Of a stretch of DNA of 21,276 bases, positions 3,810 to 21,276 are shown piece by piece. Source of the DNA: a virus. Made by a program: the position numbers and the translations under genes. Each line of letters begins with the position of its first letter. Within the stretch, counting starts at the first letter, position 1. The DNA is taken from the IMG/VR virus record IMGVR_UViG_3300037319_000024, positions 1 to 21,276 of that record. One strand, 5' to 3'. The notes beneath the pieces were generated by a model. It was not told the origin of the DNA, did not search any database, and saw only the letters and a list, made by a program, of their open reading frames with translations.

Positions 3810-3822
3810 ATTGTTCTCCGTA

Positions 3823-7413: not shown

Positions 7414-7793
7414 TGCTGCATCTCCTTCAGTTTAGCGATGTAGTGTTTGCCCTTACCTGCATCGTCGCTGTCCTTCTTGCCTTGGCGTAGGGCATACTTG
7501 ATGATGCTGGCTTTTAGGAACCCGATAAACTCCTCGGGGGTGAGCACAGCTTCCATTACGTCCCATGGCTGCAGGAACATGTCTTTGTAGTGAGAGCCCC
7601 CCACCTGCGTAGAGTTCGCGCTTGCAACGTCGACACTAAAGCGCCAATTTTCAGATGATATGCGGGCGAATATGTCGTGTACAAACTGGCGGGGGTACCC
7701 CAGCTCTAAAACTACTTCTTCGATAGTCGCTTGGCGGTTATCCACGAGGTATTGCCACACGTGGGTTTCTCTTTCGTTGAATGAGATGGTCAT
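7410..7793 (-). CDS. DUF3310 protein (T7 gp1.7-like) with N-terminal winged-helix-like region
   Basis: Residues 64-127 match DUF3310, the family of the T7 gp1.7 nucleotide kinase. They include VGGSHYKDM (64-72), LQPWDVMEAV (75-84), FIGFLKASIIKYALRQGKKD (89-108) and GKGKHYIAKLKEM. These proteins act on nucleotide pools or phage DNA synthesis; whether this one has kinase activity is not known. Residues 1-60 are an extra domain with a helix-turn-helix look (TIEEVVLELGYPRQFVHDI, 23-41). The start overlaps the upstream stop as ATGA with AAGGA nearby. Confidence 0.85.
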   Translation of the reverse strand: MTISFNERETHVWQYLVDNRQATIEEVVLELGYPRQFVHDIFARISSENWRFSVDVASANSTQVGGSHYKDMFLQPWDVMEAVLTPEEFIGFLKASIIKYALRQGKKDSDDAGKGKHYIAKLKEMQQ

Positions 7794-7984
7794 ATTTTGT
7801 ATCCTTCTTTCCTGCGGTTGCTCACAAATTGTGTCAGGTCGTCCTTGGCATGTTGGTATCGCTGATTAACGGAAGGGGATGCGTCCTCGCTCCTGTTAAT
7901 CGCTTGGTGCTGCCAGAAATCTGCCTGCTGTCTCAGGAATCGTAGCTCTGCTTCGAGGGCGGGAGTCAGTTTGTCGTCGTGCAT
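7790..7984 (-). CDS. Small helical protein, unknown
   Basis: The product is 64 residues from ATG 7984, which overlaps the upstream stop as TAATG; the longer frame to 8056 lies inside that gene. The sequence is charged and helical (LEAELRFLRQQADFWQHQAI), with a second helix around YQHAKDDLTQFVSNRRK. It could be a small DNA- or protein-binding helical hairpin. I see no family motif. Its last codons carry the ribosome binding site of the DUF3310 gene. Confidence 0.65.
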   Translation of the reverse strand: MHDDKLTPALEAELRFLRQQADFWQHQAINRSEDASPSVNQRYQHAKDDLTQFVSNRRKEGYKI

Positions 7985-8502
7985 TAGGCTGAGAACCACG
8001 CAGCGTCTGGGGCCCATAGAACATGAGACGCCTTCTCCTGAGTTCCTCGGGCCCACACTTGTGCCTTGGCAACTTCCCCTGTCATGTGCATACGGCTCAA
8101 GGTCTTCTGCATGTGTAGGTCGGCCTCACCTAGCGCAGTGGCCAGCGCGGGTGCTGTTTGCGGGAACGCATTATTCTCGACGTCGAAGTAGTCGATGATC
8201 CGGTCTTCTAGCTTGGCTACCTCCACACGTGGCGTCGGCGCTGCAGCGGGCGTTTCAGTCATACGTGCGGCGTCGGCTACAGATGCCCCTACAGCTTTCC
8301 ACGGGGTTTCTGGACGGTTGCCAGCGAAGTTAGGGAGCATGGTTAGCTCCCGCGTCTGGTCTTCTTCGATGCCGTGTTTGCGGGCAACCCTTGCAGCGAT
8401 GAACACTTGTTCTCCGGTAGATACGCGGATGCCAAAGGTTGTAAGGGTTTCCAGCTGTGTTTCGATGTACACTGGTTCGGTAATCATAGTGTTGGCAGTC
8501 AT
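7984..8502 (-). CDS. Protein with cold-shock/OB-like N-terminus and winged-helix-like C-terminus
   Basis: This 172-residue protein has an N-terminal beta-rich region (TFGIRVSTGEQVFIAARVAR, 23-42), which looks like a small barrel. An Ala/Pro-rich linker (about 75-95) follows. The C-terminal region (from VEVAKLEDRIIDYFDVENN to the end) has the helix-helix-wing rhythm of a winged helix, with ALATALGEADLHMQKTLSRM as the putative recognition part. A DNA- or RNA-binding regulator is the most natural reading, but no named family is certain. The start has AAGGA upstream. Confidence 0.7.
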   Translation of the reverse strand: MTANTMITEPVYIETQLETLTTFGIRVSTGEQVFIAARVARKHGIEEDQTRELTMLPNFAGNRPETPWKAVGASVADAARMTETPAAAPTPRVEVAKLEDRIIDYFDVENNAFPQTAPALATALGEADLHMQKTLSRMHMTGEVAKAQVWARGTQEKASHVLWAPDAAWFSA

Positions 8503-8530
8503 AGTAATAGTCCTTCGGGGCTGGGTGTGT

Positions 8531-8830
8531 TTATATATTTGTCCACGCGGAGAGCACTTCTTCAGTGTCGTGCATGTTCGTTTCGTTTACGATCCAATCA
8601 AATCCTCCTGCGGTCTTGATGTCTTCCAAGTTCTTCTGCTGCAGTGCGGTAGTCTTACCCTTCCCCGCCTTACATTCGATACCGAAGAACAATCCTTTGT
8701 AGCATGCAACTATGTCAGGTACGCCGCTGCGCCCAAAACCACCCGTAACGGGGTAGAAGTAGTAGGCCCCCATCTTCTTCAGGTAGTTAGTCACTACTTT
8801 TTTGACCTTAGCTTCGGGTGTCATCGCCAT
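8531..8830 (-). CDS. VRR-NUC domain nuclease
   Basis: From ATG 8830 (GGAGAAAT upstream; the longer frame to 8896 is not preferred) the 99-residue protein is a stand-alone VRR-NUC domain. GVPDIVACYKG (36-46) has the catalytic D39, GIECKAGKGKTT (50-61) has E52 and K54, and LQQKNL follows. By family knowledge these are structure-specific PD-(D/E)XK nucleases that cleave branched DNA such as Holliday junctions, useful for resolving phage replication intermediates. A copy of the dispersed palindrome lies inside the gene and encodes VVTNY at 12-16. Confidence 0.93.
   Translation of the reverse strand: MAMTPEAKVKKVVTNYLKKMGAYYFYPVTGGFGRSGVPDIVACYKGLFFGIECKAGKGKTTALQQKNLEDIKTAGGFDWIVNETNMHDTEEVLSAWTNI
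8783..8797. repeat. Dispersed palindrome copy 2 (GTAGTTAGTCACTAC)
   Basis: Inside the VRR-NUC gene, read as VVTNY in the coding phase. Middle five bases are TAGTC. Confidence 0.75.
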
Positions 8831-8878
8831 TATATTTCTCCGTTTGTCGTAGTAACTGGTTTCTGTAATTGTGTATGA

Positions 8879-8892
8879 GGGGCCGTAGCCCC
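8879..8892 (-). other. Short hairpin with UACG tetraloop
   Basis: On the leftward transcript GGGGC and GCCCC enclose UACG closed by a C-G pair, one of the very stable UNCG tetraloops. It lies in the 85-base gap before the VRR-NUC gene, next to a palindrome copy. There is no U-tract after it, so RNA stabilisation, processing or translation control is more likely than termination. Confidence 0.5.
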
Positions 8893-8897
8893 CCACG

Positions 8898-8912
8898 GTA
8901 GTGACTCACTAC
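8898..8912. repeat. Dispersed palindrome copy 3 (GTAGTGACTCACTAC, perfect arms)
   Basis: Intergenic, 3 bases beyond the stop of the small gene 8916-9182 and just ahead of the tetraloop hairpin. The centre GACTC is a GANTC site. Confidence 0.9.
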
Positions 8913-8915
8913 CTA

Positions 8916-9182
8916 TTATAGGTGTACCCAATACGTTGATGCGTCGATCCTTCGACCTACACCTTCCACCGGTTCAATCGGCGGGGTGGGGTCTATCATC
9001 ATTAGGGTAGCAACACGCTCTTGTACCCAAAGGGGTGCCTGTTGTATACTATCGTATAGTCCTAGAGCTGACGTGTCAACGCTTAGGAGCTCAAAAGCCA
9101 TTATTTCTACCTCATTCGTAGTGGGATGTACTGTCACGCGGTACGTGATGTCATTGCTTGCGCTCACAGGGTTACTGCTCAC
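8916..9182 (-). CDS. Small unknown phage protein
   Basis: The frame ends at 8916. Two starts are possible: GTG 9182, overlapping the upstream gene by 11 bases without a visible ribosome binding site (88 residues), or ATG 9101 with GAGG 8 bases upstream (61 residues). I list the longer form because ITYRVTVHPTTNEVEIMAFE reads like a natural beta hairpin, but the shorter one has the better initiation signal. The rest is helical with a Pro-rich turn (IDPTPPIEPVEG). No function is recognised. Confidence 0.55.
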   Translation of the reverse strand: MSSNPVSASNDITYRVTVHPTTNEVEIMAFELLSVDTSALGLYDSIQQAPLWVQERVATLMMIDPTPPIEPVEGVGRRIDASTYWVHL

Positions 9183-10047
9183 TCAAGTAGAACACATTGT
9201 CGGCTATCTTGAGTCCAACACCTGCAACGTAATGGCCTTCTTCGACCATAGACAGCACCGAGATACCCCCTAATATACTTTCGGGTAGTTCCTCCTGTGC
9301 GTAGTCAAACGAGGTACTCCAATCCACGCCGTAAAGACTTCGATCATTGTCCACGTTATTGAACCCACGGAAACGTGTACTGTCGCCAACTGTGTAAGCC
9401 TCGACAAACGTATGCTTTCTATCCGTAAGTTGTTTACTGTCGGCCAACTCCTCCAGTGCAGAATACGATGCGCGGAGGTCAGCTTCCAACTCCTTGTTGA
9501 TGAACTTATGGCCTGAGTTGAGCATGGTCTGCAGTTCGACCTGTAACGCACTAGGGGTACGCATGCGGTATGTGCTAGAGGGGAACAGGTTAAACTCCCC
9601 AGTGTTTACCACTTTGCTGTATGCCAATGTAGCCGCGGCCTTCACCGTAGACAGCTTGTCGTAGAACCCTGATTGCGCTTGTCCTATCACCTGACGCGCC
9701 GTCAACGGACGTAGGTACTTCATCGCGTTCTTGACACCCTTGGCTCGATGCAGGGTGCTAGATATGTATCTCCTTTCACCGTGCTGGTACTTGCTGTTCT
9801 GTATATTCGGTGAGAATACAGAGTACCGTTTCCCACCGTCACGATTGCTGTGGTCCGCATAGCATATCCAACCCATGATGTATGTGTCTTGTGGTCGGTA
9901 CACGTACATGGATGAATCGCACCTGCGAGCCGTGTGCAGCCCACGAACAGCAGCTTTGAGGTCATTTGCCATATCCAGCACCCCGAAATTCTCATTGCCT
10001 AGATTCTCGTTGGCTTTGATGCTCTGTACTAATTCTAAGTGTAGCAT
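9172..10047 (-). CDS. Conserved-type phage protein of unknown function
   Basis: This 291-residue, Tyr- and Ser-rich soluble protein has no signal or membrane segment. The N-terminal half (MYVYRPQDTYIMGWICYAD, around 47-65) looks beta-rich; residues about 180-225 are helical and charged. I do not recognise a family. It overlaps its upstream partner as TAATG, with GGGAGG upstream, so the two are made together and may form a complex or share a process. It has no catalytic motif that I can name. Confidence 0.75.
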   Translation of the reverse strand: MLHLELVQSIKANENLGNENFGVLDMANDLKAAVRGLHTARRCDSSMYVYRPQDTYIMGWICYADHSNRDGGKRYSVFSPNIQNSKYQHGERRYISSTLHRAKGVKNAMKYLRPLTARQVIGQAQSGFYDKLSTVKAAATLAYSKVVNTGEFNLFPSSTYRMRTPSALQVELQTMLNSGHKFINKELEADLRASYSALEELADSKQLTDRKHTFVEAYTVGDSTRFRGFNNVDNDRSLYGVDWSTSFDYAQEELPESILGGISVLSMVEEGHYVAGVGLKIADNVFYLSEQ

Positions 10048-11096
10048 TATTTATTTCCTCCCTTAACAAATCCTAGTTGGTTGTTGATGAATGTGTTGAA
10101 ACGTACCCGCACAAGGGACAAGTCCTGCTTAGTTTGTACTGTTTTCGTGTAGTATTCCGTGTTCAGACCCCACGTCTGGTCAGTGCAGTTCCCTGCAAAC
10201 ACTACCCAGAACGCTAGTCGCAAGTCGTGTCCGCCATCGCGCACGATGGCACGTGCCATAGAAGCCCGCCCAATGTGCGATTGGCTGAAAGTAAGGATAT
10301 GAAGTTCAGCCTCGCGCGCGCGCCGATAGTCCTCGTCCTCTAGTGGTAGTAGGGGTGACACGGCCATACCCCACTCAAAGAACTTATTGATGTCGTCCTT
10401 GAACTTGGCTTTAGCTTCTTTGTCCACATAAGGTTTCCGCGGTTCCTGCAGGCCGGTGCCTTCGACGTGCTGCCATTCGCTGTTGTCCTTGCGGCGAAAC
10501 ACAACCGCAGAGTTATCGTCGCGGAGCCTAATAAACTTAACTATCTTACTCATCCAATTACTAGAGGGCTTGACTTGGTACGCCTCGTACACCCGTCGCG
10601 GCGTGGTGCGTACTTTAGCTAGGTAGTGGGTAGTCGTAGGACCATTACCCTGATACTGACCCACGTCCCTCACCGTAAGGCGTTGGGTACCCGCCTGTGT
10701 AGTGAAGAGCATATACGCGGGGGTGTGGCGGCTTAGAAAAGCGTTGTGGGCTTCGTGAACACCCGGCCCCCACCCATTACGGATGGTTACTTGGTCTGTG
10801 CCGTCACGAAGTCTACGCCACACGACGGGTGCGTACTTCTCCAGCGTCTTGTTTACAGCGGGAACATTATAGAGCACGTACCCATAATCGGGGTACACAC
10901 TATCACCGAATGTAAATCCGAAGGTTAGTGCGTAGCAGTTGGCGCTGATCTTAACGATGCGTTCGTACTTACGACTGCGATCCCCGATAGGGCGTATGTC
11001 TTTGCCTACGTTGCCTCTACCACGCACGGGCGCGATGTTATTGTAGTGAGCCACTACCTCGGCGAAAGTAGAGTAGTTTGAAAATGTTAGTGCCAT
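10047..11096 (-). CDS. Conserved-type phage protein of unknown function (related in layout to 14639-15388)
   Basis: The protein has 349 residues with a basic N-terminal segment (RPIGDRSRKYERIVKI, 35-50). A DGT-x-x-VTIRNGWG-type stretch, then HEAHNAFLSRHTP, resembles a segment common in phage proteins where D-G and T...F.P elements follow short beta strands. The gene at 14639-15388 shows a similar order (RRIKGKANSK, HHTEVVIW, STDAFASAFMP). It could be a nucleic-acid-binding early protein, but that is only an inference. The palindrome at 11043-11057 encodes VVAHY (14-18). The start has AGGAGA upstream. Confidence 0.75.
   Translation of the reverse strand: MALTFSNYSTFAEVVAHYNNIAPVRGRGNVGKDIRPIGDRSRKYERIVKISANCYALTFGFTFGDSVYPDYGYVLYNVPAVNKTLEKYAPVVWRRLRDGTDQVTIRNGWGPGVHEAHNAFLSRHTPAYMLFTTQAGTQRLTVRDVGQYQGNGPTTTHYLAKVRTTPRRVYEAYQVKPSSNWMSKIVKFIRLRDDNSAVVFRRKDNSEWQHVEGTGLQEPRKPYVDKEAKAKFKDDINKFFEWGMAVSPLLPLEDEDYRRAREAELHILTFSQSHIGRASMARAIVRDGGHDLRLAFWVVFAGNCTDQTWGLNTEYYTKTVQTKQDLSLVRVRFNTFINNQLGFVKGGNK
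11043..11057. repeat. Dispersed palindrome copy 4 (GTAGTGAGCCACTAC)
   Basis: Inside the 5' end of the 349-residue protein gene, about 40 bases after its start codon, read as VVAHY. Identical to copies 5 and 6. Middle bases GAGCC. Confidence 0.85.
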
Positions 11097-11118
11097 TGGC
11101 TAGTCTCCTGTTGCTTGA

Positions 11119-11472
11119 TTAAGTAGTCTGGGTTTCTTCGTACGCATCCAATACTATTTCGGCCACGTACTCTGCGACAGTTCCGCATCCGCATTTCTCT
11201 GCCTCGTCAAATAGCCACTGCGCTTGGTCCACTGACAGCGCGGCTTTTACCTCCTTGAACGAACCCCAAGTCAGCGGCGACTTGCGGAACACTGCGTCCA
11301 AAGTCTTGACCCGAGGTGTGCAGTCACCGCTTTTTCGCCCTCTGCATATGGTCATAATGACAGACTTTTGTTCGACACCCGTATGTGCTGAAATCTCACC
11401 TGCCGAATGTCCTTCGTTGGCCATCGCCCAGATAGTTCTCGTCGCGGGGTGTAGTTTGCGGTTATCGGTCAT
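11119..11472 (-). CDS. HTH DNA-binding protein, paralogue of the gene at 6621-7046
   Basis: The 117-residue protein has an N-terminal helix-turn-helix (TRTIWAMANEGHSAGEISAH, 12-31, then VEQKSVIMTICRGRKSGD). Its C-terminal part ends CGTVAEYVAEIVLDAYEE. Layout and the EIS/AEY/DAY landmarks match the protein at 6621-7046, so the two are paralogues that have diverged strongly. The start has GGGGAGAA upstream. A phage regulator, possibly binding the dispersed palindromes as a dimer, is a testable idea. Confidence 0.75.
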   Translation of the reverse strand: MTDNRKLHPATRTIWAMANEGHSAGEISAHTGVEQKSVIMTICRGRKSGDCTPRVKTLDAVFRKSPLTWGSFKEVKAALSVDQAQWLFDEAEKCGCGTVAEYVAEIVLDAYEETQTT

Positions 11473-11489
11473 TCCGGTTCTCCCCTTGT

Positions 11490-11711
11490 TCAGCTTTTGA
11501 AATGCGATTGCGAAATCACAGCCTTTAGCGCCACAACCTCTGCAACCATGCGCTGCGAAACCTTGAATTGCTCAACAGTACCATCGCGCTCATATTCAGC
11601 GTCAATAAAACCCATTGCTGCAATGGCACTCTCTAATGCGTCGATTTGGCCAAGCACCCGATTGTGAGCGCGACCATCTTCTAAAAATGCAATATATTCA
11701 TCTGTCGTCAT
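11490..11711 (-). CDS. Small helical protein, unknown
   Basis: The 73-residue product starts at ATG 11711 after AGGAGAAACCGAA, a good ribosome binding site. It is mostly helical: a first helix around TTDEYIAFLEDGRAHNRVLG, a second around QIDALESAIAAMG and a third VSQRMVAEVVALKAVI. It may form a small helical bundle. This is the last gene of the small-gene accessory block. No family is recognised. Confidence 0.6.
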   Translation of the reverse strand: MTTDEYIAFLEDGRAHNRVLGQIDALESAIAAMGFIDAEYERDGTVEQFKVSQRMVAEVVALKAVISQSHFKS

Positions 11712-11773
11712 TTCGGTTTCTCCTATTTATGTTGTGCGGTTTATCCGTGTTCATCCCAACCGTGCTTATTTTC

Positions 11774-11965
11774 CTAATGCGGCTTGTCTTTCAGTGGGTG
11801 GCGTGAGGCTCTAAGGCCCGCCACATAACCCGCGTTAAATGGGTCATAATGCCATCCAGAGCCGTCAATCCAATGCGCCAGAGATATGAGGAAATCGGCT
11901 ATTCTAGCCCGCAGCTCAGATGCAAGCATCCCTTCGCGGTCTATCCTGTCGTTGTGGTTAATCAT
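11774..11965 (-). CDS. Small protein sharing its N-terminus with the gene at 12146-12262
   Basis: I use ATG 11965, with AGGAGA upstream; the frame opens further but inside the neighbouring gene. The 63-residue protein begins MINHNDRIDREGM, encoded by DNA that is 33/34 identical to the start of the gene at 12146-12262. Its C-terminal part (HWIDGSGWHYDPFNAGYVAG) is unique. It ends with TAG; ten more codons follow in frame before the next stop. The function is unknown. Confidence 0.6.
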   Translation of the reverse strand: MINHNDRIDREGMLASELRARIADFLISLAHWIDGSGWHYDPFNAGYVAGLRASRHPLKDKPH

Positions 11966-11968
11966 TTT
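11935..11968. repeat. Direct repeat copy A (34 bases, gene start)
   Basis: 33 of 34 bases match 12231-12264. Beyond a 15-base insertion (11920-11934) the similarity continues at 11906-11919. It covers a ribosome-binding/start region and the first codons, marking a partial gene duplication. Confidence 0.9.
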
Positions 11969-11975
11969 GTCTCTC

Positions 11976-12158
11976 CTATTGTGAACAGTTTTTAACAATC
12001 GTGTAGACTTCACCACGCCACTCAACATAGCGGACCCGAAGATCACCGACGACCTCGCCATCAAGGTCTTGACCCATCTTTGAGGCAAGCCAAAGCCGTA
12101 TCGGTGAAACACCCAAAGACCGGATACTGGCACGGCATCTTATTCCTACGTCGAGCAT
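11976..12158 (-). CDS. Small unknown protein
   Basis: The ATG at 12158 has CGAGG 9 bases upstream and lies 13 bases inside the end of the preceding gene. The 60-residue product ends in a beta-rich segment (DLRVRYVEWRGEVYTIVKN), which reads like a small barrel. The first 30 residues are less protein-like (SIRSLGVSPIRLWLASK). Another frame is open over the same DNA but lacks a start codon. Stop at 11976 and the next ribosome binding site are adjacent. Confidence 0.5.
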   Translation of the reverse strand: MLDVGIRCRASIRSLGVSPIRLWLASKMGQDLDGEVVGDLRVRYVEWRGEVYTIVKNCSQ

Positions 12159-12262
12159 CGTTCAGTGCCTCGTATTGTGTATAAGTCCACGTTAGCCTCC
12201 TTTAAATTTTGTGCTTTAGCCCGCATCTCATCGCGGTCTATTCTGTCGTTGTGGTTAATCAT
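12146..12262 (-). CDS. 38-residue protein, probable truncated duplicate of 11774-11965 type
   Basis: The short frame starts at ATG 12262 with GGGGAGAAG upstream and overlaps the previous gene by 8 bases. It begins MINHNDRIDRDEMRAKA, a near copy of the start of the protein at 11774-11965 but lacking five codons. It then continues into unrelated sequence ending GTERCST. It is either a very small gene or the remnant left by a partial duplication. A strong internal AAAGGAGG at 12194-12201 suggests translation signals are kept. Confidence 0.45.
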   Translation of the reverse strand: MINHNDRIDRDEMRAKAQNLKEANVDLYTIRGTERCST

Positions 12263-12264
12263 TT
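12231..12264. repeat. Direct repeat copy B (34 bases, gene start)
   Basis: Partner of 11935-11968, with one mismatch. Upstream similarity continues immediately at 12217-12230 without the 15-base insertion seen in copy A. Confidence 0.9.
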
Positions 12265-12584
12265 GCTTCTCCCCTAAACGCTGCCATAATTTGCGCGACG
12301 TGGTGCGCTTGGGCTGCGGCTTTGGCAGTGTTGTCATCATCATAGGAGCCTATGAAAGAACCACGGCAGATAAGCCCCACCATACCAGACGTTGTATCTG
12401 TTAGATGATAATTTTTTTCCCCACTGCTACGACACATGCACATGTTCGCATACCAAACCAACGGCACCACCATGTCAGGCAACGCTGTGATGATTTCGTC
12501 GGCCGTATACTGTGCATCTGAACGGTTCCAAGGATAACCCATCTCCATCAAAACAATTTGTGCAATCTCATCCCTCATACTCAT
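12255..12584 (-). CDS. Small unknown phage protein
   Basis: The start ATG 12584 overlaps the upstream stop as ATGA. The 109-residue protein begins with MRDEIAQIVLMEMGYPW, a helix. YTADEIITALPDMVVPLVWY and a cysteine pair in NMCMCRSS follow. An alanine-rich helix (AKAAAQAHHVAQIMAAFRG) closes it. The opening pattern (IAQ-I..., TADEIITAL) resembles small phage proteins found in accessory regions of temperate alphaproteobacterial phages. No enzymatic motif is visible. Confidence 0.65.
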   Translation of the reverse strand: MSMRDEIAQIVLMEMGYPWNRSDAQYTADEIITALPDMVVPLVWYANMCMCRSSGEKNYHLTDTTSGMVGLICRGSFIGSYDDDNTAKAAAQAHHVAQIMAAFRGEAND

Positions 12585-12757
12585 AACATGTAACGCCCTA
12601 TCCATTCACGTAACTCTTCAACGGTCGTCGCTTCCGACAGAGTACGCTTCTTCTGATCTATGAACGTCTCGTGTCCCTTATCAGCCCGCTCATATTTTAG
12701 CTGCTCGACACTTAGCACGTGGCCGAACGGGGTTTCTGGTACTGTGATCTTGGTCAT
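12581..12757 (-). CDS. Small unknown protein
   Basis: From ATG 12757 the product is 58 residues (MTKITVPETPFGHVLSVEQL ...), ending in a helix (VEELREWIGRYML). The frame opens to 12820, but that lies inside the upstream gene. The ribosome binding site is weak (AGAAAGATAG), so coupling to the preceding gene, whose stop is at 12759, is likely. The function is unknown. Confidence 0.55.
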   Translation of the reverse strand: MTKITVPETPFGHVLSVEQLKYERADKGHETFIDQKKRTLSEATTVEELREWIGRYML

Positions 12758-12758
12758 T

Positions 12759-13001
12759 CTATCTATCTTTCTGTAAAGCGTTTCTCGCCATTGTTTCGAT
12801 CTGGTCGCCCGATAATTCACTGCCCCTGCTTGCTAGAAACGCCAGAGCAGTAGACATTGCATCTCTCTGCCGAACAAGTTCACGCGCTATGTCAATAATC
12901 TCGCCGTATCCAGACCCGCTAATTCCGCGCCCGTCTGCAACATAATTGATAATCGGGTTGCATATTTTCTGCTCAACGGTCTTTTTACTTGTGTCAGTCA
13001 T
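12759..13001 (-). CDS. Small helical protein, unknown
   Basis: The 80-residue protein overlaps its upstream gene by 8 bases. It has a flexible GRGISGSGYGE turn (25-35), then two helices (IIDIARELVRQRDAMSTALA and ELSGDQIETMARNALQ). Small phage helical proteins of this sort are common in accessory regions. Function cannot be assigned. The start follows GAGAGTGAAAACC, a moderate ribosome binding site. Confidence 0.6.
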   Translation of the reverse strand: MTDTSKKTVEQKICNPIINYVADGRGISGSGYGEIIDIARELVRQRDAMSTALAFLASRGSELSGDQIETMARNALQKDR

Positions 13002-13320
13002 CGGTTTTCACTCTCTTTTGTGCGGGGTGGTGGACAGAAATGTATCCGTCAGGCAATTCTTTGGGGCAGCGGTAAAAAACGCTAATCACTACGCGGTCTT
13101 TATCAAACACAACCCAGTATTCAGGGAGCATCTCAACTTCCGTAAGTTGGTTGGTTGACAAGGTAGCGGTTCCGTCGGCTCTCCAACCGCCAATGTGCCA
13201 TTCACCTGAACGGCCTTGGGTAGCACCATGTACAGGTTTAGCACCTCCCCCATCGGTAGAATAAATACGCACCGGATTGCCTGCGGCGTTTTCGTAGGTT
13301 TTGTTAGTATCAACGATCAT
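12994..13320 (-). CDS. Small beta-rich phage protein
   Basis: The 108-residue protein overlaps the upstream stop as ATGA (13317-13320). It begins NKTYENAAGNPVRIY, then VHGATQGRSGEWHIGGWRADG and LTEVEMLPEYWVVF. The order 'name-the-value, G-x-x-G-x-W, ... D/N-L-x-E-V' is shared with the N-terminal part of the protein at 14158-14598 (GKQYQTRSGRAVTI ... QWTSEGRNN ... KDLIEV). I infer that the two share a small beta-barrel domain that recurs in phage accessory genes. Its function is unknown. Confidence 0.65.
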   Translation of the reverse strand: MIVDTNKTYENAAGNPVRIYSTDGGGAKPVHGATQGRSGEWHIGGWRADGTATLSTNQLTEVEMLPEYWVVFDKDRVVISVFYRCPKELPDGYISVHHPAQKRVKTDD

Positions 13321-15392: not shown

Positions 15393-15563
15393 TTATTCCT
15401 CCTCGGGTTCTATTTGGCCGTTGCCGCCGCAGTTCTCACACTCGGCCCAGTAATCCTCATAATAGCCATGCGGGTTTGAGTTAGACATTGGCACTGCACG
15501 TTCGTACTCTAAGTCTCCTTCACCGTCACATTCTGGACACGTCGTGCTCTTCGTCAGGGTCAT
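15393..15563 (-). CDS. DnaJ-like zinc-finger protein
   Basis: From ATG 15563, overlapping the upstream stop as ATGA with GGAGGT upstream, the 56-residue protein has two DnaJ-type repeats: CPECDGEG (9-16) and CENCGGNG (42-49). C9, C12, C42 and C45 could bind one zinc. In DnaJ this cysteine-rich fold binds unfolded protein; in phage, small stand-alone versions are frequent and of unknown role. The end is acidic (EPEEE). It lies next to the MoxR-VWA module, so a chaperone adaptor is possible. Confidence 0.75.
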   Translation of the reverse strand: MTLTKSTTCPECDGEGDLEYERAVPMSNSNPHGYYEDYWAECENCGGNGQIEPEEE

Positions 15564-15952
15564 AGTTCTACCTCCACTTTTACGGTTACGCGTATGCGGT
15601 CCCATAGTTTTTCGATAAGGACACCGTCGTCGTCGCTGTCGTCGCTTTCTTCTATGTCTTCTGTTTCCTCGCCCACACGCACGAACCTGTACGCTATCTG
15701 CATGTCCCGTTCCTCCTTGAAGGTGTCGGCCAGAGCCATCATGTGTTCTAGCCCCTGCACATCGTCGTAGCTTTCATACCACTTCACATAATCCCCGTGA
15801 TAATACAGGATGTTGTCTTCCTTCCGTTCCCACACCTTTAACAGGTCATACTTTTGCACCTGCGGGTTGATAGCGTAGACCGCCAAGACTTCCTCTAAGT
15901 CAGCCTCGCTACTGAACGCGACACCGATATGCACTTCACTCCTGTACCCCAT
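15560..15952 (-). CDS. Phage protein with MGYRSEV start, unknown
   Basis: The 130-residue protein begins MGYRSEVHIGVAFSSEADL, a start seen in a widespread group of unassigned phage proteins. The middle is alpha/beta (YYHGDYVKWYESYDDVQGLE) and a strongly acidic stretch (about 96-109, EETEDIEESDDSDDDG) precedes a beta end (RIRVTVKVEVEL). It overlaps the DnaJ-like gene as ATGA and starts 2 bases after the VWA gene. Possible DNA mimicry by the acidic stretch is speculative. Confidence 0.7.
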   Translation of the reverse strand: MGYRSEVHIGVAFSSEADLEEVLAVYAINPQVQKYDLLKVWERKEDNILYYHGDYVKWYESYDDVQGLEHMMALADTFKEERDMQIAYRFVRVGEETEDIEESDDSDDDGVLIEKLWDRIRVTVKVEVEL

Positions 15953-15953
15953 C

Positions 15954-17207
15954 TCACATCTCCCTTGATTTGATGTTCACAGTCACGCCCACGTCGGGCT
16001 TGGCACCTAGATTGTCCATGATGCACCACAACACAGGCATGCCCCATTGACCCCAGCCACCGTATAGGTGCCCATCTGTCAGCACGATTGCCGCTTGCGC
16101 GTTGATGTTGTTATCCCGAATGTAATCGGTAACGCAGGTAACGTCTGTGCCGCCGCCGCCTTCTGGTTTGGTAGACTGCGCAAGGTCATCGAGTTCGTGC
16201 TTGTCGTACTTCTCGTCACGACATACCGCGGTGTCCCAATACAATAGACGTACGCCGTCGGGGTGTACCGTATCACATATCTCTTTGACCTCGGTGAGGA
16301 ACGCAGACAGTTCTCGCTGTCCGATCGAGCCTGACGTGTCGATTGCCAATACCAGTTCCCCGACTTGCTCACTGATACCGCTTGGCATGTATAGGCCAGA
16401 GGACAAGTACCTGCGGTTGGGGCGGCGGTATGTAGAGTAGTCGCTACCTGCACACGTGGACGTGACAAACTCTCGTAGGGTCTCGCGCCAGTTGATCTGC
16501 GGCTGGAGTAGTTCGTGTAGGTCGCGATCACCGCCGCTACCCATCTTACCTGCAGCAAGTGCGCCTTGGCGTATTGCCTCGTCGAGTTCTCGTGCGAGTC
16601 CCCGTTGTTCCTCGGCGGTGAGTTCCTGTGCACCATCCCAATCGTGTTCATCGAACGGCTGCTGTCCGTTCTGTAGTGAGCCACTACCCTGTCCGCTACC
16701 ACCACCTTCGCCGTCTTCGCCGTCACCCTGCTCAGAACCTTGATTGTCTTGGTCTTCACGCAGCAAGTAGTACACCTGTGCGCTGTCCATGCCAGCATAC
16801 TTGGTGTCGTAACATCCCCCTTCGAGTACGCCTGTCATAGTTGCGAAGCGATCCGCATTGTCGGCCACAATTTTGTGGTTGATAACGTAGTCACACGCCA
16901 TGTTCGCAAGATGTGCGTCCTGCTTGTATAGGTGTTGCCACGTAGTCAGGTGCCGGAACAGTTTGTGATACACCTCATGCAACACCAAGAACCTTAACTC
17001 GGCGTCGTTGAGTTGGTCTACAAACTCACGTCCGTACATCTCGTCGCAACCATTGGTACACGCGGTCGGTACGTTGGGGTCATCCACCACGTTGCGGTCC
17101 CCGATCATCAGTACCCCTGCGAGTGCCGTGTATTTCGGGTTCCCCATGATGGAGACAACGGCTTTCGTTAGCCGCTGCTCCTCGGTTAGTCGGTTTCGTA
17201 GTAACAT
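15954..17207 (-). CDS. Metallopeptidase-like/VWA-like protein (DUF2201 type), partner of MoxR ATPase
   Basis: The 417-residue protein has two domains. The N-terminal part has LHEVYHKLFRH with HEVYH at 77-81 and H86, then NMACDYVINH (102-111), as in the DUF2201 putative metallopeptidase domain. The C-terminal part is a VWA-like domain with the MIDAS motif DTSGS (290-294), GGGTD (351-355) and LTDGH (376-380). They are joined by an acidic, Gly/Ser/Gln-rich linker (151-185), within which a palindrome copy encodes GSGSL (174-178). By family knowledge such VWA proteins work with MoxR-type AAA+ ATPases in metal insertion or protein remodelling. The phage-side target is unknown. GGAGGAAC precedes the start. 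Confidence 0.9.
   Translation of the reverse strand: MLLRNRLTEEQRLTKAVVSIMGNPKYTALAGVLMIGDRNVVDDPNVPTACTNGCDEMYGREFVDQLNDAELRFLVLHEVYHKLFRHLTTWQHLYKQDAHLANMACDYVINHKIVADNADRFATMTGVLEGGCYDTKYAGMDSAQVYYLLREDQDNQGSEQGDGEDGEGGGSGQGSGSLQNGQQPFDEHDWDGAQELTAEEQRGLARELDEAIRQGALAAGKMGSGGDRDLHELLQPQINWRETLREFVTSTCAGSDYSTYRRPNRRYLSSGLYMPSGISEQVGELVLAIDTSGSIGQRELSAFLTEVKEICDTVHPDGVRLLYWDTAVCRDEKYDKHELDDLAQSTKPEGGGGTDVTCVTDYIRDNNINAQAAIVLTDGHLYGGWGQWGMPVLWCIMDNLGAKPDVGVTVNIKSREM
16673..16687. repeat. Dispersed palindrome copy 5 (GTAGTGAGCCACTAC)
   Basis: Inside the linker region of the VWA gene, read as GSGSL. Identical to copies 4 and 6. Confidence 0.88.
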
Positions 17208-17208
17208 C

Positions 17209-17520
17209 TTAGTTCCTCCACCACATCATCTGCTTCCACCACGTAGGTTTCGGCTTGTATTGTGGGGCTCTACCCAAGTTAAACGCAACGGAACCAACGT
17301 CGACGTCGGCGGGTGCGTCGTCTTCGTACACCGGAAGATCAATAGGTAGTGAGCCACTACCCTTCTTGGTCAAGTTCAATGCGAAGCTGCGGTTGTAGAT
17401 ACGGGTCACGGGTACGTCCATGATAGTAGAAATAATGTTCGGCCTTACGTTAGCCTCCCGCAGTTCTATAAGTCTCGCGTCCAATTCCTTGGTCCATTTG
17501 ATATTTTTACGTTTAGCCAT
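17209..17520 (-). CDS. Myb/GcrA-like HTH protein
   Basis: From ATG 17520 (AGGAGAAGACTA upstream; the frame opens to 17565 inside the previous gene) the product is 103 residues. The N-terminus (IKWTKELDARLIELREANVR, 7-26, then IISTIMDVPVTRIYNRSFAL) has the W-T-x-E-x-D...L...R...I spacing of Myb/SANT and GcrA-type DNA-binding domains. Next comes KKGSGSLP, where GSGSL (54-58) is encoded by a palindrome copy, then an acidic stretch and an aromatic end (TWWKQMMWWRN). It probably binds DNA and may link the module to transcription. Its tail could contact the VWA protein, a guess. Confidence 0.7.
   Translation of the reverse strand: MAKRKNIKWTKELDARLIELREANVRPNIISTIMDVPVTRIYNRSFALNLTKKGSGSLPIDLPVYEDDAPADVDVGSVAFNLGRAPQYKPKPTWWKQMMWWRN
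17346..17360. repeat. Dispersed palindrome copy 6 (GTAGTGAGCCACTAC)
   Basis: Inside the Myb/GcrA-like gene, read as GSGSL directly after the DNA-binding domain. Identical to copies 4 and 5. Confidence 0.88.
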
Positions 17521-17680
17521 TAGTCTTCTCCTCGTTTGCTGTGACAACTTCTGCGCTGCTTGCACCCACTGTGCTTTTGAAATCTACCTTGGCATGTTTC
17601 ATTGCCTCGGCTACGTTCTGGGCATCCACGCGCATCACGCGCTCGACCAGTCCTTCAACGGTTACATAATAGGTTTTCAT
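17513..17680 (-). CDS. Small unknown protein
   Basis: ATG 17680 is chosen because GGAGGAG lies 8 bases upstream and it overlaps the upstream stop as ATGA. The 55-residue protein starts MKTYYVTVEGLVERVMRVDA and continues NVAEAMKHAKVDF, a beta-beta-alpha layout typical of small phage proteins that begin with 'YxVxxxG...R.xVxAxxxxEA'. The tail (VGASSAEVVTANEEKTNG) is flexible. Function is unknown. Confidence 0.65.
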   Translation of the reverse strand: MKTYYVTVEGLVERVMRVDAQNVAEAMKHAKVDFKSTVGASSAEVVTANEEKTNG

Positions 17681-17856
17681 GTTATCGGCTCCTCCAGTTT
17701 GCCTAGCCACATGGCCATTTTATGAGCTTCCCTTGCGTCGGCATGGCTGCACTGTTTGGCTTTCATGTAACGGTCGATCCAATCATATCTGTCCCAACGG
17801 GGCTGTGCCGCCCGCGTTGCCTCTTTTATCCACCTGATGTCTTCGGCGTAGGCCAT
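17677..17856 (-). CDS. Small helical protein, unknown
   Basis: ATG 17856 overlaps the MoxR gene stop as TGATG (an in-frame GTG just before is also possible). The 59-residue protein is helical and Trp-rich (IRWIKEATRAAQPRWDRYDW), followed by DAREAHKMAMWLGKLEE. It lies between the ATPase and VWA genes, so it may be a small adaptor of that module. No family is recognised. Confidence 0.6.
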   Translation of the reverse strand: MAYAEDIRWIKEATRAAQPRWDRYDWIDRYMKAKQCSHADAREAHKMAMWLGKLEEPIT

Positions 17857-18950
17857 CACACCTTATCCGCTGTGTAGAGGTGTGTGTTCTTCATTGCCCA
17901 AGCGGTGAACTTCTTGTTGGTCATCACCATAGACTGCTTGGAATACTTCGGTGCTCTAACGCCGTTAGCGAACATGGCCTGTGCCTCAGTGTCGAGCCTC
18001 GGCAGGTAGTCCATCCACGCACTGAGCCATCCAGACTCCAGTGATGCGAGTGTCCGATACACCACCATACATACAGCTGCGGCGCTGGTCGGAACCTTGG
18101 CGTTCATCGGATCATCCTTGATAGACTGTAAGCTAGGCAGTTGGTCAGATAGTGCGACGAACGCCATCAAGTCCATTGCCCCACGATCACCGATTGTACC
18201 CATCAGGGCGGCGGTCAGTGTCACATCGTCGAAGTGTTCCCGTGTCTTGAGTATATCCGACGCTGCTTCGAGTGAGCGAGGTGTAACAAACGCAGCGCGT
18301 TGCTGCTTGGGGTGGAAGATGTAGGGGTTCTCGTTAGGGTCTTTGACGTCCTCGAACGATGCCATCAGGTGCGGGTTGTCTTTGACCCAGCCTAGCAAGC
18401 TGTGGTCTACCGCGTTGTTGATACCCCACTCGATCCAATCCATGTGGTCGGTCTTCTTGATCTGCACCACGGTCATACGGTTACGTGCGTGAGGTGGGAT
18501 CATATCACCCACACCTTCGGAACCCTTGTTCGTTGTCGCGAAGACAACACTGTCAGGGTGTAGTGTGTAACTACCAATTTTGCGTTCTAATATGAGACAA
18601 GTCAGGGCGGTCTTCACTGCGGGGTTCGCCTTACCAAACTCGTCGAGCATCAGAATGACGGGCCCCTCCAAGTGCATACCTAGTTCTTCGTGGGGGATCA
18701 TACGCACACAGCCGTCGCGTTCGATCGACTGCATGGACGGGATCATAATGTCGCCAAGGTCTTTGGTGGTCGCGTCGAAGTACACCTTCCTATGTGTGGG
18801 CAATTCGGCTCCCAGCATGTGTATCATGGACGACTTGCCGTTACCCATGTCACCTTGGGCGAGGATGGTACGTTTACTGCCCACCGCTTTGATTAGCGAT
18901 ACACATTGGTCGAGGCTCAGTGCGTACATTGCCTGTGCTTGATTGGTCAT
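17856..18950 (-). CDS. MoxR-type AAA+ ATPase
   Basis: The 364-residue protein has Walker A GDMGNGKSS (33-41), Walker B VILMLDEFGKA (98-108), sensor 1 ATTN (138-141), an arginine-finger region PPHARNRM (152-159) and a sensor-2-like TPRSLE further on. The pattern is that of MoxR/CobS-like AAA+ proteins, hexameric chaperones that act with VWA proteins. The VWA/metallopeptidase partner lies downstream at 15954-17207 and a DUF3150-like protein upstream, so a complete module is present. It is not accompanied by cobalamin genes, so phage-specific protein remodelling is likelier than cobalt chelation. The start follows CTGGAGAACAAC. Confidence 0.92.
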   Translation of the reverse strand: MTNQAQAMYALSLDQCVSLIKAVGSKRTILAQGDMGNGKSSMIHMLGAELPTHRKVYFDATTKDLGDIMIPSMQSIERDGCVRMIPHEELGMHLEGPVILMLDEFGKANPAVKTALTCLILERKIGSYTLHPDSVVFATTNKGSEGVGDMIPPHARNRMTVVQIKKTDHMDWIEWGINNAVDHSLLGWVKDNPHLMASFEDVKDPNENPYIFHPKQQRAAFVTPRSLEAASDILKTREHFDDVTLTAALMGTIGDRGAMDLMAFVALSDQLPSLQSIKDDPMNAKVPTSAAAVCMVVYRTLASLESGWLSAWMDYLPRLDTEAQAMFANGVRAPKYSKQSMVMTNKKFTAWAMKNTHLYTADKV

Positions 18951-18972
18951 GTTGTTCTCCAGTAGTTGTTTT

Positions 18973-18987
18973 GTAGTGAGTCACTAC
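18973..18987. repeat. Dispersed palindrome copy 7 (GTAGTGAGTCACTAC, perfect arms)
   Basis: Between the MoxR gene and the 54-residue gene. It supplies the latter's tandem stops TAG-TGA. The centre GAGTC is a GANTC site. Confidence 0.92.
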
Positions 18988-19148
18988 AGTTCAGTTGTTT
19001 CCGCAAGAAAGATATTACATAGGCGCTCGACAGCTTGGTCGGGGGTCACGCTCATGCCCAGCTCTTTCGACATTACGACACGTACTTCGTGTACGAGCTG
19101 CGATGTAGTCTTGAGTGGCTTGGCCAATTCGTTGTTAAAGATACCCAT
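18984..19148 (-). CDS. Small protein upstream of the MoxR gene, unknown
   Basis: ATG 19148 has AAGGAGG 5 bases upstream. The 54-residue protein (MGIFNNELAKPLKTTSQLVH ...) ends in a helical segment (TPDQAVERLCNIFLAETTEL). The stop is inside a palindrome copy. It lies between the DUF3150-like and MoxR genes; a small regulatory subunit is possible. No family is recognised. Confidence 0.65.
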   Translation of the reverse strand: MGIFNNELAKPLKTTSQLVHEVRVVMSKELGMSVTPDQAVERLCNIFLAETTEL

Positions 19149-19158
19149 GTTGTCCTCC

Positions 19159-20079
19159 TTACAGGTCCATTGTTGGTAGTGATTTGATCGCAGCATCTAC
19201 TGCGGCCTTGGTCGACGCACGGAACACATCGTCCGCACGTAACGCATCGGGGGTCACGCCAGACATCGCGGTCTCTAGGTTATTGGCCATCGCGGTCATC
19301 TGTGTAGAGTTACCCACGTTGCATACGCGCAACAGTTCGATCATGTCATTGACGTTGCCGACCAGTGTATCGCGGAAAACCTTGCGGTCTTCTTTGCTGC
19401 CATAGTCGAGCCGTTCGGACATGCTGTGCAGTGCCTTGTGTAGACGTTGCCACACGTCGTTCATCGCGTTGTTGAACTGCTTGCCGTAGAAGTCGGCGTA
19501 TGTATCACGCAGTTCACGCAGTGCGGTGTTGCCAATGTCCACTCGGAAGTCACCTGCATCTGGCAGCGGCATGAAGTTCATATGGAACGCAAACTTACGC
19601 ATGAGGCTCTCGGCGGTGGGGTAGTCTTCACGCAGGAACAAGTCACCCAGCTTGAGTTGTACGTCCACCACCTCGTCGTTGTACGATTTGAGGAAGTCAC
19701 CGACGAGCATCTCGAACTCGTTCTGCATGCGGGACATTGCGTAGGTGTATTTGCTGTGCTGCGCAGTTGGCAACAGACGCATACCTGAGTTGGACCACGG
19801 CATCGTCATGTTGATGTGCATGTTCCGTGTGGCTGTCACGTGCGTCTGTATCGCGCTCAGTGTATCGGAGTTGGCTAGGAGTTTCTTGTTGACGTTGGCC
19901 ACACCTTTGGCGGCGTGGTTGTCAGAGGTTACGGCTTCGGAGGCGCGTTTGTCTTTCTTGCGGCCAGCCCAGTTCGAGATACTTACCTCGACGAGCATAG
20001 CGGAGGACGACAGGGTTGGTGCTTCGGCTTGTAGTGAGTCACTACCTTGGTTCGGGATCATCTGAATTATAGTAGACAT
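19159..20079 (-). CDS. DUF3150-like protein of the MoxR-VWA module
   Basis: The 306-residue protein has VSISNWAGRKKDKRAS (32-47) near the N-terminus. A long, mostly helical body follows, with FEMLVGDFLKSYNDEVVDVQ and a FAFHMNFMPLPDAG segment. This order (a 'V-x-W-x-GR-K' start, helical bundle, then R/K-FxFxxxxxP) is what I associate with DUF3150 proteins that sit beside MoxR-type ATPases and VWA proteins in bacteria; the match is by recollection of the pattern. Residues 12-16 (GSDSL) come from a palindrome copy. The start follows AGGAGAATAAT. Its likely role is a scaffold or substrate adaptor for the ATPase. Confidence 0.65.
   Translation of the reverse strand: MSTIIQMIPNQGSDSLQAEAPTLSSSAMLVEVSISNWAGRKKDKRASEAVTSDNHAAKGVANVNKKLLANSDTLSAIQTHVTATRNMHINMTMPWSNSGMRLLPTAQHSKYTYAMSRMQNEFEMLVGDFLKSYNDEVVDVQLKLGDLFLREDYPTAESLMRKFAFHMNFMPLPDAGDFRVDIGNTALRELRDTYADFYGKQFNNAMNDVWQRLHKALHSMSERLDYGSKEDRKVFRDTLVGNVNDMIELLRVCNVGNSTQMTAMANNLETAMSGVTPDALRADDVFRASTKAAVDAAIKSLPTMDL
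20031..20045. repeat. Dispersed palindrome copy 8 (GTAGTGAGTCACTAC, perfect arms)
   Basis: Inside the 5' end of the DUF3150-like gene, about 35 bases after the start codon, read as GSDSL. The centre GAGTC is a GANTC site. Confidence 0.92.
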
Positions 20080-20100: not shown

Positions 20101-20349
20101 TCAGCCCAAAATCTTCTTGAGCGCCGTGTGGATGTTGTCGTCGTCGAGATACTCGTAGATGCCTCGGCCAAACCATTCCTCGCGGGTGGCGAGAGGTATT
20201 TGATAAAGCATGTTGAACCGGAAACTGCGGGAGCTATAACCGCAGAGCAGGTGCTTCCTAAACAGACCCGCGAAGGATAGGCCGTCCTTGAGCTGGATCG
20301 AGGCGATTGCGTTTTCCAACGCGTGAAAGTCACCGGCGGTCATCTTCAT
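20101..20349 (-). CDS. Small unknown phage protein
   Basis: ATG 20349 overlaps the upstream stop as ATGA and has AGGAGG 6 bases away. The 82-residue protein starts MKMTAGDFHALENAIASIQL and has a basic middle (RKHLLCGYSSRSFRFNMLYQ) and a helical end (DDDNIHTALKKILG). The design suggests a small helical nucleic-acid- or protein-binding early protein. I do not recognise a family. Confidence 0.7.
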   Translation of the reverse strand: MKMTAGDFHALENAIASIQLKDGLSFAGLFRKHLLCGYSSRSFRFNMLYQIPLATREEWFGRGIYEYLDDDNIHTALKKILG

Positions 20350-20564
20350 GTCATCCCTCCTGTGTATTTGTTGAGACCCTTGAGGTCGTTGGGATTGGTG
20401 ATGAGGGTCGCACCTTGCTTGTGGGCGATGGGTGCTACTGTCCAACCGGCTCGTTGTTGGACGGCGTATGTATCACCGCAGTCTAGGCAGAAGTTGTACC
20501 CGAGTTGTTTTCGGCGTGGGTCAAAGGACTGGCCGCATGAACGGCAGTGAGCTTTGATTGGCAT
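20346..20564 (-). CDS. Phage zinc-ribbon protein, first gene of the cluster
   Basis: The 72-residue protein has C7-x2-C10 and C26-x2-C29 (CRSCGQSFDPRRKQLGYNFCLDCG is one continuous ribbon from 7). TVAPIAHKQGATLITN and DLKGLNKYTGG follow. The 'CxxCG..F.PRR...GY..C..CG...A ... P.HK ... T...DL.GLN' layout recurs in early regions of tailed phages. A DNA- or RNA polymerase-binding role is plausible because it is the first gene made from the main promoter, but that is inference. The start follows AAAGGAGACCACC. Confidence 0.8.
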   Translation of the reverse strand: MPIKAHCRSCGQSFDPRRKQLGYNFCLDCGDTYAVQQRAGWTVAPIAHKQGATLITNPNDLKGLNKYTGGMT

Positions 20565-20587
20565 GGTGGTCTCCTTTGCGTGGTTGA

Positions 20588-20602
20588 GTAGTGAGTCACT
20601 AC
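20588..20602. repeat. Dispersed palindrome copy 9 (GTAGTGAGTCACTAC, perfect arms)
   Basis: In the 5' leader of the leftward operon, about 70-80 bases after the main promoter and 24 bases before the first gene. The centre GAGTC is a GANTC site. This is the position expected of an operator or roadblock. Confidence 0.92.
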
Positions 20603-20672
20603 AGTTGGGTGGTTGGTTGGTTGACTGGTCGGCAGGTGGGGCAGCAAGTGCTCTTCCTCACGACATATACCT

Positions 20673-20701
20673 ATAATAGCAGGGTTCTTCACCAATGTCA
20701 A
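20673..20701 (-). promoter_or_regulatory. Strong leftward sigma70-type promoter of the whole cluster
   Basis: On the minus strand a consensus -35 TTGACA (20696-20701) and a -10 TATTAT (20673-20678) are separated by exactly 17 bases, and TGC before the -10 gives an extended -10. Transcription should start near 20,665 and enter the zinc-ribbon gene at 20564 after a leader of about 100 bases. No other promoter of this quality was seen on the minus strand, so most of the 44 genes probably depend on it. Confidence 0.85.
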
Positions 20702-20715
20702 GTTTTCTGAGTAGT

Positions 20716-20790
20716 TATAGTGGTGTGTGGTGGGGCCTGATGTCGTGGGGTGGTGGCTGATGGTGCTCAGTGGTGTGGCGTGTGTTACGG
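20716..20790. other. GT-rich, strand-asymmetric block upstream of the promoter
   Basis: The plus strand is almost pure G and T (runs such as TGGTGTGTGGTGGGG and GTGGGGTGGTGG) with few A or C. It lies between the main promoter and the iterons. A smaller TTGG-repeat stretch lies at 20604-20625. Such asymmetry can favour unpaired DNA, G-quadruplex or R-loop formation near origins. There is no gene here. Confidence 0.6.
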
Positions 20791-20791
20791 G

Positions 20792-20941
20792 TAATGTTCT
20801 CGTGCTACGGTAAAGTTCTTTAAGTATGGTGGTGTATGGTGGGTGTTAATTGGCTAAGTGTTTGATTACAAACGAATGTTCTGCGTGTTTTGTAATGTTC
20901 CGTGCTAAGTCATTGATATTACAGCAATGTTCTAATGTTCC
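20792..20941 (-). repeat. Iteron array, left half (TAATGTTCC orientation)
   Basis: Five copies of the 9-base element in the TAATGTTC(C/T) orientation or with one change lie at 20792-20800, 20874-20882, 20893-20901, 20925-20932 and 20933-20941; the last two are adjacent. They are the reverse complement of the right-half copies. The rest of the stretch holds no gene. Confidence 0.8.
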
Positions 20942-20969
20942 TCGAATCCCAGACAAGCGAGGGTTTTTT
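20940..20969 (+). terminator. Weak rho-independent terminator-like element, rightward
   Basis: CCTCG (20940-20944) and CGAGG (20958-20962) can pair around a 13-base loop, followed by a run of six T (20964-20969). The stem is short and the loop long, so this is tentative. It would stop transcription moving rightward into the right iteron half. Confidence 0.35.
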
Positions 20970-21039
20970 GAAAAGTTTAAAGGAAGGGTGGTATCGCATT
21001 AGAGGGGGGGTCGCATACGTAGAGCTATTATTTTTTAAA

Positions 21040-21141
21040 GGAACATTAGGAACATTAGGAACATTATAACTTTTTCAATAACTTACAGAGGGTCCAAAAA
21101 GAACTTCTTCGGAACATTAGGAACATTGCTGTGGAACATTA
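21040..21141 (+). repeat. Iteron array, right half (GGAACATTA orientation)
   Basis: Three exact tandem copies lie at 21040-21048, 21049-21057 and 21058-21066. A further pair is at 21111-21119 and 21120-21128 (the last ends in G), and one more at 21133-21141. An AT-rich tract (TATTATTTTTTAAAG) precedes the tandem triplet. Tandem iterons beside AT-rich DNA are typical of replication origins and of arrays bound by an initiator or regulator. Confidence 0.88.
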
Positions 21142-21179
21142 CCCCCTTAATTGCGTGGGTACGCGTATTTTGTGTGTTT

Positions 21180-21194
21180 GTAGTGCCTCACTAC
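21180..21194. repeat. Dispersed palindrome copy 10 (GTAGTGCCTCACTAC)
   Basis: Intergenic, 12 bases before a possible rightward -35 box. Outer five-base arms are intact; the middle is GCCTC. Confidence 0.82.
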
Positions 21195-21206
21195 CAATTT
21201 AGGGGG

Positions 21207-21235
21207 TTGACCTGCGCCAAAACAGATAGTAAAAA
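21207..21235 (+). promoter_or_regulatory. Possible rightward promoter
   Basis: TTGACC (21207-21212) is followed after 17 bases by TAAAAA (21230-21235), a weak -10. If used, it would transcribe genes beyond the right edge, divergently from the main operon. The -35 is good but the -10 is poor, so confidence is limited. Confidence 0.35.
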
Positions 21236-21250
21236 ACACGTAGTGTTTTT
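21232..21250. other. AT-rich inverted repeat near the right edge
   Basis: AAAAACAC (21232-21239) and GTGTTTTT (21243-21250) are perfect 8-base arms around GTA. It could be an operator over the start of the possible rightward promoter or a short terminator hairpin. The remaining bases to 21276 show nothing else. Confidence 0.45.
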
Positions 21251-21276
21251 CACCAAGCACTTTTCACCCCTACATC

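Follow-up and report, generated by a model that had tools for sequence, protein, structure and literature searches.

A MoxR-like ATPase, a metallopeptidase-VWA protein and a DUF3150-like protein encoded together in a marine phage and on plasmids

RavA-ViaA, CbbQ-CbbO and midasin each combine an AAA+ ring with a VWA domain containing a metal ion-dependent adhesion site (MIDAS); to our knowledge, none of them has an HExxH domain or a DUF3150 protein. The marine phage record IMGVR_UViG_3300037319_000024, analysed here over its full length of 21,276 bases (the window) and probably a fragment of a larger genome, encodes the same combination of an AAA+ ATPase and a MIDAS-bearing VWA protein, though the clients differ, together with a third, DUF3150-like protein. 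Among phages, Iyer et al. in 2021 described pairs in jumbo phages (group 2.2) in which a MoxR AAA+ ATPase is accompanied by a VWA protein carrying a metallopeptidase domain at its N terminus, and proposed a role in virion assembly (PMC7824862). The pair in the window has the same make-up, but no DUF3150 protein was described in the jumbo phages, and the genomes in question are of jumbo size rather than about 60 kb. In N4 (gp24 and gp25) and other Schitoviridae, a homologous ATPase and DUF2201 protein are likewise encoded side by side, but no DUF3150 protein was found, and gp25 is labelled as an HNH endonuclease in RefSeq. The two-gene ATPase-VWA core is already known and ordinary in phages; what is new is the third gene, DUF3150, and its distribution on plasmids.

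The trio of open reading frames (ORFs) reported in the initial annotation is real, and all three are intact over exactly the spans originally assigned to them:

15954..17207, minus strand: DUF2201-type metallopeptidase-VWA protein, 417 aa (Pfam, PHROG_1314 and motifs)
17856..18950, minus strand: MoxR-like AAA+ ATPase, 364 aa (PHROG_1297 and motifs)
19159..20079, minus strand: DUF3150-like protein, 306 aa (PF11348 match below the cut-off, and hhalign)

Viral contigs were scanned with the ATPase as the query, and the best 80 loci, with 69-91% identity, were kept. Gene order was counted in the 38 loci that had more than 1.5 kb upstream and more than 3.5 kb downstream of the ATPase gene. All 38 had the order DUF3150-ATPase-VWA, with gaps of 7-253 nt between the first two genes and 13-690 nt between the second and third. 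Because the arrangement is kept in 38/38 loci, the trio is not a chance association, and the co-occurrence in related phages on which the initial annotation had staked its proposal was borne out. In the ATPase and VWA trees, the window, the other viral contigs and two contigs from metagenome-assembled genomes formed one well-supported clade. The relations between this clade, the plasmids and Synechococcus phage MinM2 (see below) were weakly supported and long-branched, and required two to three gains or losses of DUF3150. A megablast search of the window against phages found no close relative.

The trio is co-located with replication genes, as had been claimed. The other genes examined in the window are also on the minus strand: a primase-like gene (3-647), an SNF2 helicase (2274-3809), a PD-(D/E)XK exonuclease (4121-4798) and a family-A DNA polymerase (4795-6621), followed by smaller genes up to the trio. 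In the direction of transcription, the trio region forms the first part of this run and the replication genes come later. In a 59.6-kb relative, the plus strand holds the trio and also the polymerase, the primase and SNF2-sized genes, and the minus strand holds the terminase, portal and tail genes. (A terminase search with phrog_2 gave no match; the terminase belongs to phrog_38.)

The VWA protein matched both DUF2201 domains above the Pfam cut-offs: DUF2201_N (PF13203) with E = 5e-28 and 98.9 bits (cut-off 23.2), and the DUF2201 VWA domain (PF09967) with E = 7e-16 and 59 bits (cut-off 26.4). It also matched PHROG_1314 with E = 1.5e-84. Both of the motifs originally pointed out are present, HEVYH at residues 77-81 and DTSGS at residues 290-294. 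The former is part of an N-terminal HExxHxxxxH motif (H77, E78, H81 and H86) in a putative zincin domain, in which H86 would be the third zinc ligand; the latter belongs to the C-terminal VWA domain, with MIDAS residues D290, S292, S294, T354 and D378. HExxH was kept in 62/62 homologues, those of N4 and the Thermus phage among them, and the HExxH and MIDAS columns, including H77, E78, H81 and H86, were at least 97% invariant. In the predicted model, residues ≈276-417 adopt a VWA fold (Z = 11.7-13.1, with a root-mean-square deviation of 2.4-3.6 Å across 134-164 residues). The best Foldseek match was the MIDAS domain of midasin, although the fold match is not specific to midasin. No structural match to the N-terminal metallopeptidase domain was visible in the list for the whole protein, which was filled by the VWA domain; the N-terminal domain was not searched alone.

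The label of PHROG_1314, “HNH endonuclease”, has passed via RefSeq to N4 gp25, phage G gp576 and others. We found no HNH match in the window protein at E values up to 1, and Pfam gives the DUF2201 domains instead. In N4 gp25 (3165-4307 of the N4 stretch read), Pfam likewise shows metallopeptidase and VWA domains and no HNH domain. The analysis thus exposes a propagated misannotation.

The ATPase matched PHROG_1297 (ATPase) with E = 1.5e-45, and has a Walker A motif (GDMGNGKS), a Walker B motif (LMLDE), a sensor-1 residue (N141), candidate arginine fingers (R156/R158) and a candidate sensor-2 residue (R225), the roles of R158 and R225 being assigned by motif position. The initial identification as a MoxR-type ATPase is supported by these motifs and by the PHROG match, but the protein fell below every Pfam AAA_5, AAA_3 and AAA cut-off (best: AAA, 13.9 bits vs 21.2), and is therefore called MoxR-like here. 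The Walker A pattern was found in 64 of the 66 ATPase homologues, and G36, G38, K39, D103, E104, N141, R158 and R225 were at least 97% invariant among them. The loss of Walker or MIDAS residues that the initial annotation had proposed looking for was thus not seen; the catalytic columns are at least 97% invariant. In a profile search of the PDB, the AAA domain of midasin was the sole match (1.5e-8), and the gene for the VWA protein lies near the ATPase gene in the window and its relatives. Among 23 paired loci, the family-A DNA polymerase was less well conserved than the ATPase in 19; the ATPase was also better conserved than the VWA protein in 72/72 loci and than the DUF3150-like protein in 68/68. 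Conservation above that of the polymerase fits a core gene.

The third protein matched PF11348 with E = 8.9e-5 and 22.4 bits, below the cut-off of 24.9; since the score misses the cut-off, we call it DUF3150-like. Its membership of the family originally named is at best distant. By hhalign, the phage and plasmid DUF3150-like proteins aligned over nearly their full length (probability 100, E = 9e-53), and residues 24-168 aligned with bona fide PF11348 members (probability 92.5). The predicted model (predicted local distance difference test score 77.6) has a mixed N-terminal part and a helical C-terminal half. Foldseek found no match to it under E = 0.1, and VIA-align returned mainly four-helix bundles (Z up to 10) and no clear match.

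The ATPase-VWA pair is widespread in phages. By tblastn against phage records, the VWA protein was found in at least 628 and the ATPase in at least 433. The pair is present in N4, PA5oct, Bacillus phage G and Thermus phiFa, and also in Roseobacter CRP-7 and Delftia RG-2014; the two genes were together in every phage read except one. In Rhizobium phage RHph_TM3_14A, the closest annotated phage by polymerase, the ATPase, VWA, PolA, RecB-like exonuclease and SNF2 genes follow one another in one run. The earlier view that phage ATPases of this kind usually lack such a partner does not agree with hundreds of records for each gene, a count that leaves the CobS genes of T4-like cyanophages unsurveyed. 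Most of the pair-bearing phages that were read have no detectable DUF3150, which means that not every such pair requires the third gene.

The DUF3150-like protein was found in only three phage records, each of 65,014 bp: MinM2, Pag-Yong1 and Pra-JY27. In the cyanobacterial phage MinM2, the trio is already annotated as a MoxR ATPase, DUF3150 and a VWA-like protein. The protein was also found in 44 plasmid records, mostly from Burkholderiales. In the five plasmids read (Burkholderiales/Rhodovastum), the ATPase and VWA genes adjoin the DUF3150 gene or lie within a few kb of it, and no virion genes were seen in the stretches around the trio. The plasmid and MinM2 cassettes have the same three homologous genes, but in the order ATPase-DUF3150-VWA rather than DUF3150-ATPase-VWA. 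When genomes were scanned with the phage DUF3150 profile, just two loci came up, one of them on a 63-kb contig. In pMSMB608, a PRTRC ThiF gene of the PRTRC cassette (1-625 of the stretch read) and type IV secretion genes lie near the trio.

A more distant version occurs on other conjugative elements. A bona fide PF11348 protein has relatives in 1,168 plasmid records, of which 978 are typed as conjugative. The IncC plasmid pNDM10505 has, in order, an AAA_5/CbbQ_C ATPase, a hypothetical gene, ssb, bet, exo, DUF3150 and a VWA gene whose product carries its own HExxH motif. Like the window, it thus combines a MoxR/CbbQ ATPase, DUF3150 (PF11348) and a protein with HExxH and VWA. In pCAR1, the MoxR and VWA genes are part of a block conserved in R478, Rts1, SXT and R391 (PMC2642839). 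These versions differ from that of the window in their distant sequences and CobT-like VWA protein and, in IncC, in the interposed ssb-bet-exo genes. On chromosomes, DUF3150 was above the PF11348 cut-off in 8 of the 398 Pseudomonadota genomes sampled, and the loci read had CbbQ_C-type ATPases and/or CobT-like VWA genes nearby; at two of them, a YqaJ exonuclease adjoins the ATPase.

The gene identities, the intact active-site residues, the strict co-occurrence in the clade, the trio on plasmids and the placement with replication and recombination genes, all computed here, are consistent with a remodelling machine of the MoxR-VWA type, made of three components, that mobile elements would use in genome replication or recombination. 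This function, argued from gene context and homology, is uncertain, and we would put its chances at slightly less than even. Since both the ATPase and the VWA protein match midasin, a ring that pulls a complex apart via a MIDAS partner is the natural model. For the trio we infer that the ATPase would assemble as an AAA+ hexamer, onto which the MIDAS face of the VWA protein would dock as in RavA-ViaA, CbbQ-CbbO and midasin. From its gene linkage, we guess that the DUF3150-like protein might serve as an adaptor, for the substrate or for the ring. By ATP hydrolysis, the machine would then dismantle a protein complex at or close to the DNA of the element, and the HExxH domain may clip this complex; the substrate could be a host replication or defence protein.

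Several points weigh against such a function. Profile searches of the fetched stretches detected no DUF3150 in N4, PA5oct, phage G, phiFa, CRP-7, RG-2014 or RHph_TM3_14A, where a diverged or distant copy is possible. The IncC/chromosomal version is distant (hhalign probabilities of 92.5% for DUF3150, 92.4% for the ATPase and 23% for the VWA protein). In SXT, deletions of bet, exo, s067, s068 and s070 reduced transfer by no more than 10-fold (PMC2791158); judged by gene order, s068 and s070 would be the DUF3150 and VWA genes. A MoxR-VWA pair is believed to act in the tail development of ATV (PMC4124505), and a MoxR-like ATPase was reported in the virions of a Staphylococcus jumbo phage, for which the authors ask for confirmation (PMC10638138).

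The latter observations favour a virion-assembly chaperone and processing protease, in which the pair would fold and mature structural proteins and the HExxH domain would cleave them, exactly as proposed for the jumbo phages (PMC7824862). In ATV, the MoxR protein p618 binds the VWA protein p892 and is found in virions (PMC4124505); a MoxR-like ATPase is discussed among the co-packaged proteins of UFV_DC4, although co-packaging needs confirmation according to the authors (PMC10638138); and the PA5oct ATPase entry bears a note of electrospray ionization tandem mass spectrometry. However, the full trio is found on plasmids, with no virion genes in the stretches read, and in phages it sits with the replication genes and, in the 59.6-kb relative, on the opposite strand to the virion genes. 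Plasmids make no virions, which points away from particle building, and the position among replication and recombination genes, in phages and IncC alike, together with the presence on plasmids, argues for DNA metabolism or protection of the element. We consider virion assembly unlikely for this trio; the evidence suggests that its task is to handle or protect the DNA of the element itself rather than to build particles.

Protection could also mean counter-defence or host take-over, with a machine that takes apart or cuts a defence or stress complex of the host, one that attacks the incoming DNA of phages and conjugative elements. The genes are common to phages and conjugative plasmids, they are located with replication-type genes, and those following exo in SXT/IncC are conserved, although laboratory transfer hardly depends on them (PMC2791158). 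On the other hand, conservation as strong as that of the ATPase is expected of a core function more than of a gene caught up in an arms race, Pfam and PHROGs gave no match to a known anti-defence protein (PADLOC was not searched), and MoxR/VWA is not mentioned in the paper on anti-defence in plasmid leading regions. As the sole function it is doubtful, about as much so as virion assembly; it is possibly a part of the role of the remodelling machine. The maturation of a metalloenzyme, also suggested initially, would require a CobS/CobT-like chelatase chaperone. CbbQ_C ATPases and CobT-like VWA proteins do occur at the plasmid and chromosomal DUF3150 loci, but the window proteins had no CbbQ_C or CobT match in Pfam, and the annotated genes around the trio included neither a large chelatase subunit nor a candidate client. 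We regard metallocofactor insertion as very improbable.

Seven small ORFs surround the trio:

20346..20564, minus strand: 72-aa protein with a C4 zinc ribbon, starting the run upstream of the DUF3150-like gene (weak profile matches)
20101..20352, minus strand: 83-aa ORF between the zinc-ribbon and DUF3150-like genes (ORF call)
18984..19148, minus strand: 54-aa ORF between the DUF3150-like and ATPase genes (ORF call)
17677..17859, minus strand: small ORF downstream of the ATPase gene (ORF call)
17513..17710, minus strand: small ORF (ORF call)
17209..17520, minus strand: 103-aa ORF, “Myb/GcrA-like” in the initial annotation (ORF call)
15393..15605, minus strand: 70-aa ORF downstream of the VWA gene, with zinc knuckles of the DnaJ type (motif)

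The intervening genes had been put forward as possible new subunits. They are present in some relatives and absent in others, and since the gaps between the main genes vary, with just 13-29 nt between the ATPase and VWA genes in several relatives, they are optional and therefore improbable as subunits. The 103-aa ORF, which had no Pfam match, is optional among relatives; the ORF at 17513 was found in a minority of them, that at 17677 in one, and the 54-aa ORF in some only. No counterpart of the 83-aa ORF was detected in the 80 relatives. The DnaJ-like zinc finger expected just downstream is there by motif (two CxxCxGxG-like knuckles), as an optional neighbour shared by part of the relatives. 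The zinc-ribbon ORF, with weak zinc-ribbon and DksA-like matches only (Pfam and PHROG), is commoner, occupying the corresponding position in most relatives whose flank is long enough; it is a frequent neighbour, which does not imply membership in the complex.

No gene is obvious at positions 20565-21276, upstream of the run; motifs of the GGAACATTA type recur there, and the stretch may be a control region or an origin. The 15-base palindrome GTAGTGANTCACTAC occurs at 11 sites in the window with at most two mismatches (3823, 8783, 8898, 11043, 16673, 17346, 18560, 18973, 20031, 20588 and 21180), against 0.08 expected, inside genes as well as between them, and is present in 53 of the 80 related loci. 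In the 59.6-kb relative, the five sites are confined to the replication side and the structural region has none, a distribution like that of dispersed operator/stoperator sites. This relative also encodes a tryptophan-halogenase-like protein near the tail genes (6948-8153 of one stretch read) and a protein of 2203 aa with an antirestriction match of the DarB type (6594-13205 of another stretch).

MoxR-VWA pairs occur widely in phages and conjugative elements and have had no explanation so far, and the presence of the same trio on phages and plasmids narrows the possible function, away from a purely virion-assembly role. In the broadest form of the proposal, which is rather unlikely, DUF3150, the MoxR-like ATPase and the HExxH-VWA protein would be one machine common to phages, conjugative plasmids and integrative and conjugative elements, stripping or cleaving proteins, host defence proteins included, from the recombination or replication intermediates of the element; this would explain core genes that have no known function in IncC/SXT elements and in N4-like phages. 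With N4 and R391 in E. coli K-12, the function of these genes can be tested directly.

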